Source of the DNA: a virus
Length of the DNA stretch: 64,000 nucleotides
IMG/VR virus record: IMGVR_UViG_3300021356_000015
Coordinates: 1 to 64,000 of that record
Direction: 5' to 3' (one strand)
Part shown: piece after piece, positions 8,661 to 56,974 of the stretch
Layout of the letters: the number at the start of each line of letters is the position of its first letter
How positions within the stretch are numbered: position 1 is the first letter of the stretch
The notes under the pieces: model-generated
Database searches by the model: none
What the model saw: only the letters and a program-made list of their open reading frames with translations
What the model was told of the DNA's origin: nothing
Program-made: the position numbers and the translations under genes

Positions 8661-9026
8661 TTACTGTTGCTTGTTTTTAAATTCTATCCACTCTTCAAGA
8701 TTATCTGAGTTTCCAGTTGGCTCATATACATTCACCTTAATGACTGTATCTTGTTGCTGGTTATATTTATCTTCGATCGACACTAAATCTACCGAAATTG
8801 CGATTTCTTTACCATGGACCTCTAAAATTAGATATTCTCCATTTACTGACATGCCAACATAATGAGCTACACTATCAGGTAAAGCTTCAGCTGTTTCTGG
8901 TTGATAAGGATTAGTTCCGTTAAAATAGCGAGGACTCCTTATCATAACCTGATTCTTACATGCGTAGAAACCAAATATGACGCTAAAGAAAGCTACCGCA
9001 GCTATCAATCTCTTAATTGCTTCCAT
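8661..9026 (-). CDS. Probable lipoprotein, 121 aa
   Basis: The N-terminus has a signal-type core (LIAAVAFFSVIFGFYAC) ending in Ala-Cys, which could be a relaxed Bacteroidota lipobox, followed by KNQ. The mature ~95 residues look like a small beta domain (YLILEVHGKEIAISVDLVS). It overlaps the end of the metalloprotease gene by 14 bases, so it is translationally linked to it. An outer-membrane or periplasmic partner of the protease is a guess from context only. Confidence 0.5.
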   Translation of the reverse strand: MEAIKRLIAAVAFFSVIFGFYACKNQVMIRSPRYFNGTNPYQPETAEALPDSVAHYVGMSVNGEYLILEVHGKEIAISVDLVSIEDKYNQQQDTVIKVNVYEPTGNSDNLEEWIEFKNKQQ

Positions 9027-10236
9027 TTACGTATATTTTAGTTACAGATCGAGTACCGTTGTGATACTCAATGCTTAACATATATATTCCGGAAATCATA
9101 GGTAAGTTTTCATTGACTTGCTTACCGTGAATATCATAGTAAACGTAATTTTTAACTTGTTCGTTTTGAGTTAACTCTTGAACATTAACAATAGGAGATC
9201 CAAAACAATCATAACCTGGATCAGCATATTCACAGCTACCGTCATCGTAAATTGCATCTTGATCGTAGTTACACGCTTCTGAATCTATACATCCTGTTTC
9301 AGTACCGTCGCAAAAATCATTGTCAATGTGCTGTTGTCTAAATGCCTCCATTCTTTCGTGCATTCTTTCAATCTGGCCTATAGTAAATCCGGTCCTACAA
9401 TTTCCGCTATAGTATCCCATCATATTAGTTGGACTTTCACCGCATGCTGAAGAACACCCAAACCAAGGTATAGTTGGCTCAGTATCACATATGTAATCAC
9501 CCTGTGTATCACAATTAGTTTCGGTTTGTGCTTCTTCGCAATTACTGTATGTGGACCACCCATTTGCAAAGGTATGCAATAATCCACACCAATGGCCTAC
9601 TTCATGTGATAAAGTTGTATTTTGATTACTTGAATTTGTAATATGATCTCCAAAACCAAAACGCCCGGTTCTAATCCATATGCCAAGATTAGAAGGAGGA
9701 GTACTTGTAAATCCAGAAAAACCAGATGTCCATGGAGCAACAAATATTTCCATGTAATTACTTACACTATAACTATGTGCATTTTGAAGGCCAATATAGA
9801 AATTATTATCTGTTATATTTCCAAGTGAACCATCATATGGTTCATAATCATTTAAATCGTGATATAGTATACCGAACGATTGAGCACCAGTAAGTGTCTC
9901 GTTAGAGATACAAAAATCAATAAATGTATCATTATCATCTTCTGTCAAGCCTGAAAAAACTTGATTTAAGTGATCGATAGCTTCAATGACTATTTCTTGA
10001 GTTAAGTGTGATCCTTCTCCATATGCTTCACCTTCGTGAAATATATGGACGATCACTGGTATCGTTTTTTGTTCAAAGGAAGATCTGGAATATGTGATTC
10101 CAGGTAACGCTCGCATTGCGAAGGTGCTATCAGCTGATATGTCTTTAAGAATCATATGCTCATGGCCACACGGTGACTGAGACATAAGATTAAATGTAGC
10201 CAATAGAATTGTTAAGAGAAGTGTTAAACGTTTCAT
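9013..10236 (-). CDS. Secreted M43-type (pappalysin/cytophagalysin) metalloprotease with T9SS-like C-terminus
   Basis: The start MKRLTLLLTILL was chosen because it gives a clean signal peptide ending near MSQ; an upstream ATG at 10251 would add five residues. The zinc site HEVGHWCGLLH (near residue 210) fits HExxHxxGxxH, and NMMGYY (~273) is the Met-turn, both typical of M43 metzincins. A Cys-containing unit GCIDSEACNYDQDA (~315) follows. The last ~45 residues (VYYDIHGKQV, SGIYMLSIEYHNG) resemble a type IX secretion sorting domain. The predicted product is an active protease exported by the infected cell, which is unusual for a lytic phage. Confidence 0.75.
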   Translation of the reverse strand: MKRLTLLLTILLATFNLMSQSPCGHEHMILKDISADSTFAMRALPGITYSRSSFEQKTIPVIVHIFHEGEAYGEGSHLTQEIVIEAIDHLNQVFSGLTEDDNDTFIDFCISNETLTGAQSFGILYHDLNDYEPYDGSLGNITDNNFYIGLQNAHSYSVSNYMEIFVAPWTSGFSGFTSTPPSNLGIWIRTGRFGFGDHITNSSNQNTTLSHEVGHWCGLLHTFANGWSTYSNCEEAQTETNCDTQGDYICDTEPTIPWFGCSSACGESPTNMMGYYSGNCRTGFTIGQIERMHERMEAFRQQHIDNDFCDGTETGCIDSEACNYDQDAIYDDGSCEYADPGYDCFGSPIVNVQELTQNEQVKNYVYYDIHGKQVNENLPMISGIYMLSIEYHNGTRSVTKIYVNGSN

Positions 10237-10294
10237 GGTACAATATACCATATTTATTTCAATCCTGAAAATATTTTAACACTTTTAACATTTG

Positions 10295-10365
10295 AGGTTC
10301 GGGATGGACTTGCACCACCGTAAAAGGCTTTGCGAGCCTTCACCTAACTACTCGGACACCGAACC
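10295..10365 (-). tRNA. tRNA-Cys (GCA)
   Basis: The acceptor GGTTCGG/CCGAACC is perfect, the anticodon arm is AAGGC-TCGCAAA-GCCTT with anticodon GCA, and position 73 is U as in bacterial tRNA-Cys. The D-stem is weak and the T-loop is TGCAAGT (G at 55 instead of U). Its 5' 18 bases overlap the 3' end of the methylglyoxal synthase gene. No CCA is encoded. Confidence 0.7.
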
Positions 10366-10752
10366 GTTTTCGATCTTAGATCTATGCTTATACCACTTAA
10401 CTAAGTGAGAAGCTGTGCTATAATTTGTAGCTAATGGACAGTTATGCACATCACATACTCTCATCAACATAGAGATATCAACATCATGAGCATGTTTACC
10501 AAGAGGATCTCTAAAGAAAATAACCAAATCGATTTCAGATCTGGTGACCATAGCTGCAATTTCAGCGTCTCCTCCCATTGGACCACTAGCAACTCTTTCT
10601 ACCTTCTCAATACCGGCGTGAGCGACGTGATTACCTGTTGTTCCAGTTGCAACTATAGAGACACCTTCTGCATTAAAGAAATTAAGTCTCTTTGAAACGA
10701 AGGCGACCATATCTGCCTTCTTATTATCATGTGCTATAAGTGCTATCTTCAT
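10348..10752 (-). CDS. mgsA: Methylglyoxal synthase
   Basis: 134 aa, close to the bacterial enzyme in length. It matches MgsA along its length: IALIAHDNKK, the phosphate-binding ATGTTGN, SGPMGGDAEIAAMV with the catalytic Asp, IFFRDPL, and HDVDISMLMRVC followed by LATNYSTA. The enzyme converts dihydroxyacetone phosphate to methylglyoxal and releases phosphate, bypassing lower glycolysis. In a phage it would be an auxiliary metabolic gene, possibly freeing phosphate or diverting carbon. The stop lies inside the tRNA-Cys gene. A tRNA-Val lies just upstream. Confidence 0.85.
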   Translation of the reverse strand: MKIALIAHDNKKADMVAFVSKRLNFFNAEGVSIVATGTTGNHVAHAGIEKVERVASGPMGGDAEIAAMVTRSEIDLVIFFRDPLGKHAHDVDISMLMRVCDVHNCPLATNYSTASHLVKWYKHRSKIENGSVSE

Positions 10753-10765
10753 AGAGGTAGTATTG

Positions 10766-10840
10766 TGGGCGATGAGGGATTCGAACCCCCGACCTCCTCG
10801 GTGTAAACGAGATGCTCTGAACCAACTGAGCTAATCGCCC
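10766..10840 (-). tRNA. tRNA-Val (UAC)
   Basis: A full cloverleaf: acceptor GGGCGAT/ATCGCCC, anticodon loop TTTACAC giving UAC, and T-arm with TTCGAAT. It sits between the IMPDH-family gene and mgsA. No CCA is encoded. Confidence 0.93.
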
Positions 10841-10849
10841 TCCTAAGCC

Positions 10850-11887
10850 TTAGCTTATAAGATGCGGCTTTGCCTCTGCAAGACCCGCATTAGTTACTGC
10901 GTTGTACTCAACCTTGGACCAGTACTCGCTAGTAGTAGATGCTCCAGTGTATGAGAATGCTGACTTAATACCATCGATAAGACCAGCAAGGATAAACTTA
11001 ACTCCACCCTTGAAAGGTACAGTAGTAGATTCTCCTTCAACGTTACGTTGCTTTTGATTGTGAGTAATCTTAGTCTCAAGAGATGCAGATCCTCTGTAAC
11101 GCTTGTAAAGACCACGTGCATTTTCTAAGATAGCACCTGGTGATTCCTTAGTTCCTGAAATTAAGGATCCAACCATTACGCAATCTGCTCCAACTGCGAG
11201 TGCCTTAGCAATATCACCAGAGGACTTAATACCTCCATCTGCCATGATAGGCACATCTCTAAAGTTACCTTCGACGCAGTCAAGGATTGAGGTCACGTTT
11301 GGAACACCGAATCCAGTCTGAACTCGAGTTGTGCATAGAGAACCACCTCCGATACCAACGCGAAGGCCATCAGCTCCCCAATTAACTAAGTCTCTTGCTG
11401 CCTCTTCGGTTGCAACGTTGCCTGCGATTACATCGACAGTTGTGTGTAGGTTTTCCTTAAGCGTTGCGATTGCAGTGCGTACGTTAGCGTGGTGACCGTG
11501 CGCAACGTCGATTAAGATGATTTGGCATCCAGCTGCGCAAAGCGCTTGTGCGCGCTCAAGATAATCATCGACTGCCCCAACTGCAGCCATGATCGGAAGA
11601 TCCCAGCAAGATTCAGGTGAGTTTTGTTGAAAGTGCTTGACTTTTGCGACTTCAGCTGCTTGATCTTCGATGCTCATAAAACGGTGAATACATCCAACAC
11701 CTCCCATCTCCATCATTGCGATAGCCATCTCGCTTTCACAGACAGTGTCCATGCAAGATGCTACGATAGGAACTCGAATCTTATAATTACGAGAAACGTT
11801 GGTTGTTAGATCAATATCTTGGCGTGTGACAATATCAGAGAACTTGGGAATCAACTGAATATCATCGTATGTTAGTGCTTGCTTCAT
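10850..11887 (-). CDS. IMP dehydrogenase / GMP reductase family protein
   Basis: 345 aa TIM-barrel without CBS domains, the length of GMP reductase and short IMPDH forms. The catalytic loop is GIGGGSLCTTR with its Cys. MADGGIKSSGDIAKALAVGA and MVGSLISGTKESPG form the phosphate site, and YTGAS lies near the end. The TTRVQTGFGVPN stretch is nearer to GMP reductase, so direction (IMP to XMP or GMP to IMP) cannot be settled by eye. With the guanylate kinase at 22867 it suggests the phage tunes the guanine nucleotide pool. A late-like motif precedes it and an upstream terminator separates it from the tRNAs. Confidence 0.8.
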   Translation of the reverse strand: MKQALTYDDIQLIPKFSDIVTRQDIDLTTNVSRNYKIRVPIVASCMDTVCESEMAIAMMEMGGVGCIHRFMSIEDQAAEVAKVKHFQQNSPESCWDLPIMAAVGAVDDYLERAQALCAAGCQIILIDVAHGHHANVRTAIATLKENLHTTVDVIAGNVATEEAARDLVNWGADGLRVGIGGGSLCTTRVQTGFGVPNVTSILDCVEGNFRDVPIMADGGIKSSGDIAKALAVGADCVMVGSLISGTKESPGAILENARGLYKRYRGSASLETKITHNQKQRNVEGESTTVPFKGGVKFILAGLIDGIKSAFSYTGASTTSEYWSKVEYNAVTNAGLAEAKPHLIS

Positions 11888-13563: not shown

Positions 13564-14169
13564 TTAAATTTTAGCCATAGCCTCCATGATAAGCATCTTA
13601 CCGCGGCGAATACGATTCTTAACGGTTTGGAGGTTGACACCATGCTTGATAGCGATGTCTTCGTACTTCATGTTATTGAGAAGACGATCTTCAATGATGT
13701 CTCGGTACATTGGCTTGAGACCTTTAATGCAAGTCAAGGCCAAAGCATATTGTTCCATCAGTTGATTCTCTTCTTCGAGATAGTCTTTCTCGGTACGTTG
13801 CTCATAATCGTTGAGCAACTCGTCGATGGTTTCGTTAACGCCATTAGAGGCAGAGACTTCTACGCCGAAGTCTTTCATACCATCGATACTGTACTTGCGA
13901 TTGCGCTCGCGAATCCATCCAAGAGACTCGTTGAAGGCAATGCGATACAGCCAAGTAGTAATTTGATATTTAGGATCGTATTGATCGATCTTAGTCCACA
14001 TCTTGATCAGAGTATTAGCCAAGATGTCTTCGGCTGCTTCTGCATCTTTAACTACATTCATAATATAGTTACGAAGACCTGGTTGAACTCGCTTGTACAG
14101 CAAGTTAAAGTCTTTTTCAGATCGAGTAGCCAAGAAGTTTTCTGCAAGTTCGCGATACGTGCTCTGCAT
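13564..14169 (-). CDS. ECF-like sigma-70 family sigma factor
   Basis: About 201 aa with start MQSTYREL; an upstream in-frame ATG at 14214 would add 15 residues. Sigma region 2 covers about residues 10-90 (DILANTLIKMWTKIDQYDPK, TTWLYRIAFNESLGWIRERN), and region 4 with a helix-turn-helix lies near 150-195 (YEDIAIKHGVNLQTVKNRIR). This is the two-domain layout of ECF sigma factors. No anti-sigma gene is adjacent. It is separate from the gp55-like late sigma at 52172, so this phage may redirect host polymerase in two stages. It lies just upstream of the boxA/tRNA cluster. Confidence 0.85.
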   Translation of the reverse strand: MQSTYRELAENFLATRSEKDFNLLYKRVQPGLRNYIMNVVKDAEAAEDILANTLIKMWTKIDQYDPKYQITTWLYRIAFNESLGWIRERNRKYSIDGMKDFGVEVSASNGVNETIDELLNDYEQRTEKDYLEEENQLMEQYALALTCIKGLKPMYRDIIEDRLLNNMKYEDIAIKHGVNLQTVKNRIRRGKMLIMEAMAKI

Positions 14170-14242
14170 GTAAGTTTGTTTAGAGGGGTGAAAGTTACAT
14201 GGTAAATATACCACAAAAAATTTAAACGGGAAACTTTAAATG

Positions 14243-15478: not shown

Positions 15479-17434
15479 TTATTGTACATCATAGATGCAA
15501 CGAACCGACATGCCATGGCCTTTAGAATTACTTGTTTGCCAAAGGTCATTATATCTAGCAATACCATTCTTTGTATCTAAAATGGCTCTTGACCAAGCAC
15601 TTTCTCTTCTATTTCTTTTTAGTGAGAAATGTGAGTCTGAAGTCCAATAAGTTGCTATTAAGTCTTGGCCGTAATAAGCACCGTCAATATCTTTGATAAC
15701 TCCAGCATAAACTGGATTGAAATCACTAGCGAAGATAATACTATGCATATCTTGTGCTTCGCCTCTATTTCCAGTAGCATTAAGTTCAGCTGCATTCATA
15801 CCTATATTCTCTTCAAGTAATTTCCAATCTAAATCACTAGGAACTCTCCAACCTATAGGACACACGCCTTCATCAATAGCATACCAATTATACAAGAAAC
15901 CTAAAGTATCTACATCACTTAGAGGATTGTAATATGCTCCTACTTCATCGTTTCTCCATTCAGATCCCTGTCCTAACTCGTTAATAGAAGCTCCAGAAGT
16001 GTATGTTGTTGTTCTTAAGTTTTCAGCAAACCAACATTGATTTCCCACTAGAGTTAAATCGTAAGTGTAGCCATTATAATTTTCAGTAACGCAATCTTCG
16101 GTGTTATCACATATACCATTGTTATTTAAATCTTCTGCGCAGTCTCCGCCACAAACACCAATTGCATCTAGTTGGTTACCGTTGCAGTCGCAGTCGCCTA
16201 CAGGAATATCAGTGCATCCACACTGATATATTGCGCCCTGGCCATTACAAACCCCACATGCATCAAAAGAACCTATACAATCATCTACATCGTCGCAAAT
16301 ACCGTCGTCGTCTGAATCAGATTGACAAGTTCCATTACAAACTCCCAAAGCATCTAATTCTCCAACGCAGTCGTCTACATCGTCGCAAATACCATCTGAA
16401 TCAGCGTCGGTTTGACAAGATCCTCCGCAAACACCTATAGCATCTTCATAAAGACATGACCCATCATCAACGGTTGCTAATGCGTTATAATTACATGCGT
16501 TGGAGTCAGTACAACCTTCGTTTGACCCATACAAATTATTACCGTTTGCAAACATAGCTTGCCTATATTGATCTCCCCACGTGTGCATTCTGTCTATTTG
16601 ACCATCTGTAAACTTTAAATTAGAGCATCCATGATATGACATTATATTTTCAGGATCTGCACCTTCATTATTAGTACCAACATACCCTAAACACACAACG
16701 CTACATCCTCCTAAAACCCCAATTTGAGGAGGGGTGTCACAAACCAAGTCTCCTTGAGTTAAACAATTACTTTCTTGACTAGCTTCTAAACATGAAGGAT
16801 AACCATAATAATAAGTATCATATGTTTGCCCTTGGGAAGTTTGTTTGTGAAAAGAATGATATAATCCTAAAAAATGACCTACCTCATGGGCATTGGTTTT
16901 ACTAGTCGTACTTTTAAAATACAGAGGATCTACAAAATATCCAGGTACATAGGTAGGATGCAAAAATGTAAATCCAGCAGCGCCCCCAGACATTTCAATA
17001 ATATAAACGTTTAAATATTGAGAATTTAAATAACCAAACGTATTCCAGAAATATCCAGCTGAATCAGCAATAGTCAAATAAGAAGCATTCACATAGAATT
17101 CTGTACCGTAATCGTTTAGATCTATGTTTCTATATCCATTAAAAGTTTGATTAGTTAATGGATCTACAAATGTATTTCCATCTGGATTACGATCAGCTAA
17201 TACAAATGTTATTTCTGAATCAGTTTGATCTGTTGTACCTATTCCTGATTGAAATTGAATATTTAAAAGATCTACAGCATCAACTACCTGAGAGTAGCTA
17301 ACGTTAGACCCATACCCTAGAGTACTTGTGTTATCATGTAGTACATTTACAACAAGAGGTATTATTCTTTCTTGAGAAAGAATTGAATTACACATCGTTA
17401 AGCAAAACAATGCAAGTGTAGTTAGATTTTTCAT
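15479..17434 (-). CDS. Secreted M43-type metalloprotease with Ca-binding-like repeats and FISUMP domain
   Basis: 651 aa with signal peptide [20 protein letters not shown]. The protease domain (about residues 25-300) carries [11 protein letters not shown] and Met-turn NIMSYHG, so it should be active. Residues ~308-448 hold [20 protein letters not shown] and [14 protein letters not shown]-type units, Asp-rich and Cys-rich like thrombospondin type 3 calcium-binding repeats. Residues ~450-651 form a FISUMP domain ([32 protein letters not shown], ending GMSVRCI). These parts are typical of marine Bacteroidota secreted proteins. A terminator at 17449-17473 separates it from the gene upstream. Confidence 0.75.
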
Positions 17435-17448
17435 AGTATTTTACAAAA

Positions 17449-17473
17449 ATAAAGCGGGTTTAATCCCGCTTTA
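17449..17473 (-). terminator. Intrinsic terminator
   Basis: A perfect stem AAAGCGGG / CCCGCTTT with a 6-base loop is followed on the minus strand by ATTTTTG. It lies between the pseudo-protease stop and the start of the 651-aa protease gene. Confidence 0.8.
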
Positions 17474-17498
17474 TTTATCTTGTTTTTATAAGTTTATC

Positions 17499-20400
17499 TT
17501 AGTCTTCTAAAATACATCTAACTGAAAGACCGTGACCCTTACCCTCACTAGTCTGCCATAGATCGTGATATCTGCCAATAGCTGATAGATCTTGATCTGC
17601 AAAAATAGCTCTAGACCATGCGCTTTCACTGTATCTTGGTCGTGTAGTAAAGAAAGAGCTTTGCGTCCAGTAATAGCCTGCATTTCCAAGTTGTCTAAAT
17701 TGACCGTCAATGTCAACTCTTAAACCTCCAAAATCACCAGACCAACCTGTTGTTCCATTTGGACCAATAGCATCGCCAGTTAATGTAGAAATACCTCTAT
17801 ATCCGGTTGAATTTAATTCAGCTCTAGGCATACCTGTAAAGTCTTCAAGGTCTTTAAAGTCTTTATCAGTAGGAACTCTCCAACCTGCTGGACATACACC
17901 TTGTTCAACTGCATACCAATTGTATAAGTATCCATATTGATCATCATTACTAATATCATTATTATATCTCGAGAATGCTCCAGAAGTTGCATCTGACCAA
18001 GCTTGATTGCCTGTTATTTCGGGAATTGGTTGACCCGAGGTGTACTGGCGAGTTCTTAGGTTTTCAGTAAACCAACATTGGTCTCCTATTTGTTCAACGT
18101 CGTAAGTATAGTTATCCCAAGTTGGAGATAAACAGCTTAGAAGTTCAGCTTGTTGAGCAACGTCACAAATGCCGTCACCGTTTACGTCAAACGCACAATC
18201 ACCTCCACAGATACCTATTGCGTCTTCAACTTGACCAGCACAGTCGCAAGCGCCTTCAGGTATGCCATTACCTCCGCAGACACCACACTCATCACGTACT
18301 AGAATAGCACCATCGCTAACGTTAGCAGTAGGATCAAAATTACAAAGTAAAATTGGATTTAAAGAAGTAGATTCTTCATTAATGTCTTGATAAGGCAAAG
18401 AGTATATAGTTCCACCTACTCTAACTTCGGGGGCTTCAGCTCCAGAAACACATCTAACAGGGTAATAAGAAGTTACCCATGCGCCATAAATTTCGGAACG
18501 AGTACAATAAGGCGGTTGGCCACAAGATGGTGTAAAGCTATTATATGTAAGACCATCTGAATAATAATCAACAGCACGACCGTTACTTATAAAATTAGGT
18601 TCTTCATATTGAGGAAAATTAAATCCTGGAACAGCATTACCCGATAGTAATTGAGTAGCTGGAAAATACCAATTTCTTCTTCCATCTATGTCTTTCCATG
18701 CTCCCACTGCACCCCAGCCGTCTCGACCAGCGGTCTTAGAAATTTGATACGGATCTGATCCAAATCCATCTGGATCACTGACTTGAAGCGCACTATTATA
18801 TGTACCGTTAAATCCAAATTCATTTTGACCATAAAATGTGTTACCTGATGGGCCCCCCCAGCCCCATTCTACAACATCAGCTGCGGATACAGTTAAAGCG
18901 CTACGAGGAGATTGACCAACTGCATCAGCAAGCAATTGAAAGTCAGAAACACTGGCTACTCTAAATCCTTCTGGGCAAATATTCTTTTGGTTAGGATCGT
19001 TAGGGTTATCATAAGCCAAGTAGTTGTAATAGAAGCCCCAGAAATTATCTCTACTGTTAGGTGCATCCCATTCTTCTTGACTAACGAATGCATTATATGG
19101 ATTCGTTGTTGAGTTGGTAGCTAATCTTGGGTCTATATAAGCTGCAAAAAGACTATCTGTGTCTCTAAAAACTTCAGCGTATGTCGACATGTCAGTTGAA
19201 TCCATTCTCATGATGGGAGTTCCGTCACTATATACTGATGTCTTAAGATTTTCTGCAAACCAGCATTGATTACCAATAGATACCAAATCATGATCTGTTC
19301 CATCAACAGTTATAAATGTTATAGGATTTCCGTTTACGTCTACACAGTTATTTGCAGCTGAGACGGTATCAATAGCAGCACTAGGATAGCCCGGTGTGTT
19401 TATTTTTGCCCAGTATCTTTGTCCTTCTTGAAGACCGTCAAACCTGGTTTCAGTAACAGCCTTTCTGTATATGTGTTCGTCATGAACATAAGATAAAGAT
19501 ATTATTGTATCTTTAACAACATTAGCAAAATTTTCATCTGAGGCTAAAAGTATGTTTATATCCCCGGCCTCTACTGTTCCTTGAGACACTGCTTCTATTG
19601 AAGTAGTTATAGTACCGGGTTCTGAAACTTCAAAATCAAAATTTACATCTGCTAATGCAAAAGGATCATTTAAATTAGCATCGTCGCAAAATCCATTATT
19701 TCCTCCAGTATAACACTGCTCATTAGATACAAAGCCTTCAGGAACATCAAATCTATACATGAGAGGATACGGTAAAGTATCAGGTTGAGTTGTTAGATAA
19801 ACATCAGTATCTATAGAAGTAATCTTTGAACCCATGCCATTAAATCCTACAAAATCAACTCCATTTTGAGGATTACTAAGGTGATCTAACCATGTATCAT
19901 CCATGGAATAAAGAACATCCGTTCCATTCAAGAGAACGTTAAAGTTACACCCGTCTAAACAAGATTCGTAGACTAAGTGAGAAACTTGACCTGCTCCAGG
20001 ACCATCAGTTAGCGCGTATCCATCAAAGAATCTAAGAACGTATTCTCCTGGCTCTAAATACCAAGTATTAACAACTTCCCATGAATCATTTGATCCTGTT
20101 GCATTATAATATGTAATAAACGGGTACGTATTTCCATAGACATCGTTGCCATACTTATCAAACTTATAGGTTTCTGATGCTTTGGTTTTATTTGTAAGAA
20201 ATGAGTTAGACCACCATTTTCTACCATCCATAACTATTTCATCAGTATCTACATTATAAATGTCAAATTGCTTAAACATCCAAAACGCTCGCTTATAGTT
20301 AGAGGTTATAGATATAGAACCATCAGCTTGTCTATCCAGTTGATATGTCTTTGTATTATCTCCTAAGTATGAATCAACAGGAGATTGAGAAACAGAGGCC

Positions 20401-21764
20401 GTAATTGACCAAGTTCCTACATCCTTTATTTGTACTTCTGGAAAAGAAACGTTAAATACTTGCCCTGCTCCAATTGCCACTAAATCGTCTTGGTTATATG
20501 AATATTGAAATGATTCAGATCCATTAGTTACTTGTAAATCAATTGAATATTGAGATTCTGTAAAATCTCCGCTATTTTCTAGTACGACGATAGGCTTAAA
20601 TTTATTGATTCCCGTTCTGTCTATAGAAACGTCTACTCCAAGGTTGTTTACAGCCACTGCTGTGGTAATCCAAGCTTGATTGGCCAATTCGGTTCTTACA
20701 TTTTGTAGAGTTGCTCTCATTCTACAAACTTGATCTTGAGTGAAATGACGCTTACACTGCGGAGAAGTATCGTCCATGTAATTGTGAACGTCTGGATACT
20801 CATCTAACTCTGTGTCATAAAAGTTTTGAGTTTGACCCCCTCCAACAACAGGAGCTCTAGATGAACAAACATTACTACAGTTTCTAGGAGTGGGAGGAGT
20901 ATCACAGCATCTATCACCCTCTGTATTACAATCTACCTCATTATTAGCATCTTCTGGGGTAGAAGTATCGTACCATGTTTGATAAAGTCCTAAATAACTA
21001 CCTACTGCTTCAGTAAGGCCAGCATTCAAGCCTGTTGGGGTAGATGAAGCCAAATTTCCATAGCCGAATCTATTTGCTTGAATTACAATTCCGTCTAGGT
21101 CAGATAAATTAACGGAAGGAAATGTTCCAAACATCATTGTTCCACAACCCGCATCGTTATTGTCAATTTCTGGAACTACCCAAATATTCAAATAATTTTC
21201 TCTAGGCCAACCTGTTGCTTGTTTTATAGCTAGTTCATTAGCCGCCATCCCTGGAGATTCTGCAGCTTCTCTGACTAAACCATTTTCTACAAAACCAGCA
21301 TCAAAAGAAAAGTCATGTCTAATAATACCAGTTGTTGGATTTCCATCTGCATCACGATGTGCTAAAACAAATCTTATACCAGCATCTAGGGATGTGGCTA
21401 CTCTATCATCCCCTTCCAACCAATAAGGAACCCAAGTATTATCAAATCTGTCATTTAAATTTTGCAAAGTTGTTAATACATGCTCTCTTGCCACATTGGC
21501 TGTTAGAGAAGGCTGAAGAGCATAATTTTCTTTCCATTGCACTTCTGCATAATTAGCAGTTAAGTCAACGGGTTCTCCTTTATGAATAATATGAAATACT
21601 ACAGGAATTTCATAAATATCTGAACCATCTCCGCAATTCTCAAAATTTTGAGATATTAAGTTTTCAGCGGCTTGTATGCCAACATCATACGTTAATCTAT
21701 CAACTTGAGAATAACCCGAGATGGCTAAAATCATTATCAAGAGTAAATTTAATACTTTTTTCAT
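17499..21764 (-). CDS. Large secreted pseudo-metalloprotease (M43-like, inactive) with two FISUMP domains
   Basis: 1421 aa with signal peptide MKKVLNLLLIMILAISGYS. Residues ~45-360 align by pattern with the M43 domain of its neighbours, but the zinc site reads TEAVGSYLGLYQ, losing all three His ligands, although Met-turn-like HNYMDD and the Cys pattern (VDCNTEGDRCCDTPP) are kept. A beta region follows (~370-825). FISUMP domain 1 is at ~830-1105 and domain 2 at ~1225-1421, ending GLSVRCI. A calcium-repeat-like linker (DECGVCGGNG, DVNGDGICD) lies between them. It is probably a secreted or surface binding protein, not an enzyme. Confidence 0.7.
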   Translation of the reverse strand: MKKVLNLLLIMILAISGYSQVDRLTYDVGIQAAENLISQNFENCGDGSDIYEIPVVFHIIHKGEPVDLTANYAEVQWKENYALQPSLTANVAREHVLTTLQNLNDRFDNTWVPYWLEGDDRVATSLDAGIRFVLAHRDADGNPTTGIIRHDFSFDAGFVENGLVREAAESPGMAANELAIKQATGWPRENYLNIWVVPEIDNNDAGCGTMMFGTFPSVNLSDLDGIVIQANRFGYGNLASSTPTGLNAGLTEAVGSYLGLYQTWYDTSTPEDANNEVDCNTEGDRCCDTPPTPRNCSNVCSSRAPVVGGGQTQNFYDTELDEYPDVHNYMDDTSPQCKRHFTQDQVCRMRATLQNVRTELANQAWITTAVAVNNLGVDVSIDRTGINKFKPIVVLENSGDFTESQYSIDLQVTNGSESFQYSYNQDDLVAIGAGQVFNVSFPEVQIKDVGTWSITASVSQSPVDSYLGDNTKTYQLDRQADGSISITSNYKRAFWMFKQFDIYNVDTDEIVMDGRKWWSNSFLTNKTKASETYKFDKYGNDVYGNTYPFITYYNATGSNDSWEVVNTWYLEPGEYVLRFFDGYALTDGPGAGQVSHLVYESCLDGCNFNVLLNGTDVLYSMDDTWLDHLSNPQNGVDFVGFNGMGSKITSIDTDVYLTTQPDTLPYPLMYRFDVPEGFVSNEQCYTGGNNGFCDDANLNDPFALADVNFDFEVSEPGTITTSIEAVSQGTVEAGDINILLASDENFANVVKDTIISLSYVHDEHIYRKAVTETRFDGLQEGQRYWAKINTPGYPSAAIDTVSAANNCVDVNGNPITFITVDGTDHDLVSIGNQCWFAENLKTSVYSDGTPIMRMDSTDMSTYAEVFRDTDSLFAAYIDPRLATNSTTNPYNAFVSQEEWDAPNSRDNFWGFYYNYLAYDNPNDPNQKNICPEGFRVASVSDFQLLADAVGQSPRSALTVSAADVVEWGWGGPSGNTFYGQNEFGFNGTYNSALQVSDPDGFGSDPYQISKTAGRDGWGAVGAWKDIDGRRNWYFPATQLLSGNAVPGFNFPQYEEPNFISNGRAVDYYSDGLTYNSFTPSCGQPPYCTRSEIYGAWVTSYYPVRCVSGAEAPEVRVGGTIYSLPYQDINEESTSLNPILLCNFDPTANVSDGAILVRDECGVCGGNGIPEGACDCAGQVEDAIGICGGDCAFDVNGDGICDVAQQAELLSCLSPTWDNYTYDVEQIGDQCWFTENLRTRQYTSGQPIPEITGNQAWSDATSGAFSRYNNDISNDDQYGYLYNWYAVEQGVCPAGWRVPTDKDFKDLEDFTGMPRAELNSTGYRGISTLTGDAIGPNGTTGWSGDFGGLRVDIDGQFRQLGNAGYYWTQSSFFTTRPRYSESAWSRAIFADQDLSAIGRYHDLWQTSEGKGHGLSVRCILED

Positions 21765-56092: not shown

Positions 56093-56103
56093 CTTTATAT
56101 ATC
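56093..56103 (-). promoter_or_regulatory. Late-promoter-like motif before the AAA+ gene
   Basis: The minus strand reads GATATATAAAG, 21 bases before the start at 56071, separating late genes from the early replication operon. Confidence 0.6.
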
Positions 56104-56974
56104 AAAGACACGACATGTATCTTTCACCTCTATCACACAGGATAGTCACTATAAAGTCAATATCATGGCTTTTAGCATATCTTACTGAAGCAAGAACATT
56201 TGCGCCAGCTGAAATGCCAACAAAGTACCCCATTTTTGCCAACGTTTTAGCCATTTCTTTGGCATCTTCTGTAGATACAACTTCAATGTCATCAACCTCA
56301 TCCAATTCAACTAGGTATTTAGAGCCATCACCAATTCCTTGAATGCCATGAATGTTGGGTTCTCCTCCTGACATGACAGGAGACTCAGCAGGCTCAACAG
56401 CTACAACTTTAATGTCATGGTACCACTCCTTTAAGTATCTTCCTGTTCCCATGATGGTACCTCCGGTTCCAGTGCCCGCAACAAATGCTTGAGGGATCCA
56501 GTCACTTGCATCAACTTCTTTTCTAATTTCAGGACCTGTCGTATCATAATGAGCATCGATATTCCACTGAGTATGGAATTGATTACAGTTAAACCAACCG
56601 TGTTCTTCTGCTAATTGGTCTCTAACAACAATGGCCCCTTCAAAGTCACCTGCTCCAACTTCAATCAATTCTGCGCCATAGTATCTAAACATCTGCTTAC
56701 GCTCTTCACTCATGTTAGAAGGCATAACGATCTTCATCTTATAACCTCTTAAAGCCGCAAACATAGCAAAGGCAATGCCTGTATTTCCACTAGTGGCTTC
56801 AACTAGAGTATCACCTTGAAAGATTAGACCTCTTTCTTCAGCCTCTGTAATAACTCGTGAAACCAATCGATCCTTAACAGATCCGCTTGGATTTAAAAAC
56901 TCTGCCTTGCCCAAGATGGTGACACCATCTACTTTGAACTTGATAATGGGGGTGTTTCCTACGTATTCAATCAT
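56102..56974 (-). CDS. cysK: Cysteine synthase (O-acetylserine sulfhydrylase family)
   Basis: 290 aa, PLP fold type II. PLP-lysine motif NPSGSVKDRL near residue 33, EATSGNTGIAFAMFAALRG with the substrate loop near 64, and the phosphate-binding GTGTGGT near 170. The end is short (FIVTILCDRGERYMSCL). It makes cysteine from O-acetylserine (or a phosphoserine-type substrate) and sulphide. In a phage it is an auxiliary metabolic gene. It starts right after gp46, as the last gene of the replication operon. Confidence 0.85.
   Translation of the reverse strand: MIEYVGNTPIIKFKVDGVTILGKAEFLNPSGSVKDRLVSRVITEAEERGLIFQGDTLVEATSGNTGIAFAMFAALRGYKMKIVMPSNMSEERKQMFRYYGAELIEVGAGDFEGAIVVRDQLAEEHGWFNCNQFHTQWNIDAHYDTTGPEIRKEVDASDWIPQAFVAGTGTGGTIMGTGRYLKEWYHDIKVVAVEPAESPVMSGGEPNIHGIQGIGDGSKYLVELDEVDDIEVVSTEDAKEMAKTLAKMGYFVGISAGANVLASVRYAKSHDIDFIVTILCDRGERYMSCL

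Follow-up and report, generated by a model that had tools for sequence, protein, structure and literature searches.

The window analysed here is a stretch of 64,000 nucleotides (positions 1 to 64,000) of IMG/VR virus record IMGVR_UViG_3300021356_000015, a record of 66,623 bases (66.6 kb). On its minus strand lies a gene for a predicted zinc metalloprotease whose C-terminal tail resembles the type A sorting domain of the type IX secretion system (T9SS). The features to which we refer are these:

9013..10236, minus strand: M43 metalloprotease gene, 407 aa (PF05572, 42.2 bits, cut-off 23)
10177..10236, minus strand: predicted Sec signal peptide MKRLTLLLTILLATFNLMSQ (hydropathy 2.77, KR n-region)
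9574..9606, minus strand: zinc-binding motif HEVGHWCGLLH (HExxHxxGxxH), residues 211-221 (from the sequence)
9265..9294, minus strand: GCIDSEACNY linker motif, from the catalytic domain to the tail (from the sequence)
9016..9195, minus strand: short T9SS type A-like C-terminal tail, ~50 residues (profile, shuffle and model evidence)
9025-9135, minus strand: core of the tail with D-x-x-G, G-x-Y and a late K (alignment of 22 phage tails)
8661..9026, minus strand: downstream gene, 121 aa, overlapping the M43 gene by 14 bases
15479..17434, minus strand: paralogous M43 protease with a C-terminal FISUMP domain in place of the tail (family profiles)
17499..21764, minus strand: second, larger M43 and FISUMP paralogue (family profiles)

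Family profiles identify genes for a T4-type portal (PF07230), gp23 capsid protein (PF07068), terminase (PF03237) and sheath (PF17482), and with all four present the source is a T4-like phage; the gene content suggests that its host belongs to the Bacteroidota. The window also holds 12 tRNA genes, as well as MGS-like, IMP dehydrogenase/GMP reductase-like and cysteine synthase-like genes (10348-11887 and 56102-56974), and the stretches fetched for the IMPDH relatives contained no M43 gene of the window protease's type. The motif GATATATAa, which looks like a late promoter, occurs ~30 bases 5' of several structural genes (minus-strand starts 4200, 29076, 31209, 34196, 49058 and others), and an ECF-type sigma factor gene at 13564-14187 (Sigma70 r2 and r4) is a candidate late regulator. 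The two FISUMP-bearing paralogues (15479-21764) are conserved in the relatives L003-L005; we take their ends (W...GxSVRC) to resemble the variable proteins of diversity-generating retroelements, although no reverse transcriptase was noticed.

The open reading frame of the protease spans 9013-10251 (minus strand), and an ATG at 10251 would give 412 aa, but translation more probably begins with the ATG at 10236 (MKRL...). Both the PF05572 score and the intact HExxHxxGxxH motif assign the predicted enzyme to peptidase family M43, the pappalysins, and its nearest solved structures are ulilysin and mirolysin; the description of the gene in the earlier note as a phage protease is borne out. The signal peptide is called by a hydropathy rule only, a test passed by 21 of the 22 tailed viral homologues, the window protein among them. 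A tblastn search of a phage collection with the protease gave a single weak match, and PHROGs searches with the protease and with the tail returned nothing significant. A full-length AlphaFold2 model built from 5 sequences was set aside (pLDDT 31). The 121-aa gene downstream, possibly encoding a lipoprotein, sits at the position held in other phages by a gene with a type B sorting domain; family profiles gave it no match above cut-off, and a search of viral contigs for its relatives found none.

The tail lies at the extreme C-terminus, with G-x-Y and a lysine in its last strand, and the residues singled out in the earlier note (VYYDIHGKQV...TKIYV) do stand in frame at the end of the open reading frame (DIHG at 9124-9135, GIYML at 9076-9090, TKIYV at 9028-9042). 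Across the 22 phage tails, D-x-x-G, G-x-Y and the late lysine are invariant or nearly so. That note had likened the tail to a type A domain and proposed a search with the two curated profiles, both of which do match at the C-terminus but below their cut-offs: TIGR04183 gives 13.2 bits with the whole protein and 18.5 bits (E 0.0015) with the isolated 61-aa tail, against a cut-off of 23, and PF18962 gives 13.4-15.6 bits (E 0.02 at 15.6), against 27. In a six-frame scan of the whole record with TIGR04183, the sole match at E<=10 was the M43 C-terminus (14.1 bits, E 0.0027; profile positions 30-71 of 72). All matches of the window tail to either profile finish at the profile end, and what the tail lacks are the N-terminal strands and the PNP motif, a part that is present in bacterial M43 tails. 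Since the curated cut-offs are missed and the N-terminal part is missing, we regard the tail as a short, non-canonical form, whose sequence is related to the T9SS type A domain but divergent from it and outside the curated family. Among the phage tails, 16 of the 22 individually match TIGR04183 at E<=0.1 and four have weak matches to the type C model, these being the only families that recur.

Homology to type A domains, as distinct from canonical membership, is well supported by profile comparisons. An HMM made from four other phage tails, with the window excluded, was searched against 9,201 ORF C-termini; leaving aside its training set, the best match was the window tail (27.1 bits, E 1.5e-6), and after it came C-termini of Bacteroidota M43 loci that resemble classical type A domains; none of 20,000 composition-preserving shuffles reached the window tail's score (best shuffle, 14.5). 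When the HMM was made solely from 12 bacterial type A tails, the window tail was not significant, 331 of 20,000 shuffles scoring as well, so that it is the phage intermediates, together with the curated models, that carry the case for homology. Compared profile to profile, the 22 phage tails and the 12 bacterial M43 type A tails are related with 95% probability. When the window tail was modelled by AlphaFold2 on an input of phage tails alone (pLDDT 73), the top three VIA matches among 1000 chains were HBP35 (Z 5.3), RemZ (4.4) and RemA (4.3), all of them T9SS cargo, with Z scores that are modest; RgpB, NucA and PorZ are also among the structural matches. Foldseek alone places ordinary Ig domains as high as T9SS tails.

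Tails of the same pattern recur in other phages, and there they have a partner. A scan with the M43 alignment led to 64 viral loci, in which such tails were seen in L001/L007, L009/L010/L012, L019 and L066; a type B domain scores above cut-off in all six tailed-protease records of this M43-first set and in none of the other 35 M43 records. A separate scan from the type B domain gave 282 viral relatives, of which 80 were fetched, and in many of these a tailed M43 gene lies directly upstream of the type B gene, the two usually overlapping by 4 to 37 bases. Among non-redundant viral M43 proteases, 21 are tailed and have a type B neighbour, one (the window's) is tailed and has none, and 36 of 37 untailed proteases have no such neighbour, the remaining one lying beside a type B gene, a division owed in part to sampling, many loci having been reached by way of the type B gene. 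In the M43-first subset alone, the partner accompanies four of four tailed lineages and none of the untailed ones. Open reading frames of four contigs with the paired genes match terminase, portal, primase, holin and tail families. The window's record has no match to PF13585 (type B, CHU_C), and its protease has no adjacent type B gene. None of the 36 phage records searched for PorP/SprF (TIGR03519) gave a match, and no T9SS component from this family was thus seen in a phage. When the short-tail alignment itself served as the query, L001's contig alone came back, since a stretch of 60 aa gives tblastn little to confirm. T9SS domains of types A and B also occur in proteins of two 635-642 kb records of uncultured huge phages, L323 (LR745206) and L324 (LR756502), and a large untailed viral M43 clade (L008-L065) has dockerin-like repeats together with a CFGAELDPFYREE that is conserved close to the C-terminus.

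In close relatives the tail is under purifying selection: pN/pS is 0.17 over the last 40 codons and 0.13 in the catalytic domain (ten pairs, not independent), figures that come from the relatives, as the window tail itself has no close relative. A tree groups the window protein with L001 (98/68), close to L284 and to its own FISUMP paralogue, on a long branch whose placement is unsure; it and the other phage proteins branch apart from the 45 bacterial sequences sampled.

Taken together, a phage source, a zinc protease and a type A-related tail make export through the host T9SS the best reading, and we think it likely that Sec exports this M43 metalloprotease and that a host system, reading the short, type A-derived tail, then moves it through the outer membrane. 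In such a pathway, the predicted signal peptide would take the protease out of the cytoplasm by the Sec route, the host's T9SS translocon would recognise the tail, PorU would remove it, and the enzyme would be displayed on, or released from, the infected cell. The role that seems most likely to us is the trimming of that cell's surface proteins, which might, for example, block superinfection, stop progeny from sticking to the cell or to debris, or ease their spread. Related enzymes are tailed in this way in at least 21 other phages, and such phages probably use the host exporter to act on the cell surface. It is also possible, though we suggest it tentatively, that many Bacteroidota phages carry a surface-remodelling pair, a short-tailed M43 protease and its type B partner, both exported by the T9SS, of which the window's gene would be a stand-alone derivative in a T4-like phage.

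The export route may instead serve nutrition, the protease digesting environmental protein for the infected cell in an auxiliary metabolic role; bacterial M43 proteases secreted by the T9SS, such as mirolysin and cytophagalysin, are usually extracellular digestive or virulence enzymes. We consider this role unlikely, a judgement that overlaps with our preferred explanation, as the route is common to both and only the role differs. Another alternative is that the gene derives from an M43 T9SS cargo of bacterial or phage origin and that its tail has stopped working in this phage, so that the protease acts in the periplasm or is freed at lysis. The strong divergence of the tail, the absence of its N-terminal half, its scores under the cut-offs and the missing type B partner would all fit a vestige, but the tail has kept its C-terminal strands along with the G-x-Y and the late lysine, and the relatives' tails are under purifying selection; we hold this alternative to be quite improbable.

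It is less probable still that the protein is a virion component, a tail-tip or fibre enzyme, and that a generic Ig-like fold accounts for its likeness to T9SS tails. One relative, L005, does fuse M43, FISUMP and fibre-like repeats, and the unrelated Ig domains among the Foldseek matches point the same way; yet sequence profiles pick out T9SS domains specifically and not Ig domains generally, the protein has a predicted signal peptide, and the motif GATATATAA, found 5' of several structural genes, is absent upstream of the M43 gene (9013-10236). If export by the host is correct, it would show that phages infecting a major bacterial phylum use the host type IX system as a matter of routine to send out enzymes, with a minimal sorting tail that escapes standard annotation by lying under the model cut-offs. 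The short tail also offers a natural test of the minimum domain needed by the translocon.

Among known systems, the closest in sequence are the type A domains themselves (TIGR04183/PF18962; HBP35, RgpB, RemA), which like the phage tail are C-terminal, have the G-x-Y and late-lysine strands and are frequent on Bacteroidota M43 proteases; their fold, a compact Ig-like beta-sandwich, may be that of the modelled phage tail too. They are 72-80 residues long, whereas the phage tail has ~50, lacks the PNP motif and scores under the cut-offs. The type C signal (NF033708, ChiA) is likewise a short tail, to which the four weak matches above were made, but the type A model fits the window tail and more of the phage tails. 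The catalytic domain, with its HExxHxxGxxH motif, is that of mirolysin, ulilysin and cytophagalysin; these are cellular enzymes, mirolysin being a T9SS cargo, and the phage proteins branch separately from the bacterial ones sampled. In HBP35 the T9SS signal has been located in the last 22 residues (PMC11285876), so that truncation need not abolish function and, in principle, a domain cut short can still work.

The idea that a phage uses the T9SS, of which the earlier note knew no instance, is already in the literature. The 2020 Cryophage report describes three type A cargo proteins encoded by that phage and has the phage 'presumably hijack' the host's secretion machinery (PMC7468147). A year earlier, in 2019, crAss-like BACON phages had been noted to have T9SS sorting domains (PMC6949934). 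These phages are like the window's in having genes with T9SS sorting domains and in that use of the host system is presumed. The cargoes differ, being an endoglucanase, a GH39 protein and a PA14 protein in Cryophage and BACON proteins in the crAss-like phages, against an M43 protease here, and the setting differs as well, with a short tail in a T4-like phage in the window and, in other phages, a recurrent pair with a type B partner. As far as the open-access literature searched goes, what is new is an M43 protease as the cargo, a short sorting tail that scores below the curated cut-offs and its recurrent pairing with a type B protein.
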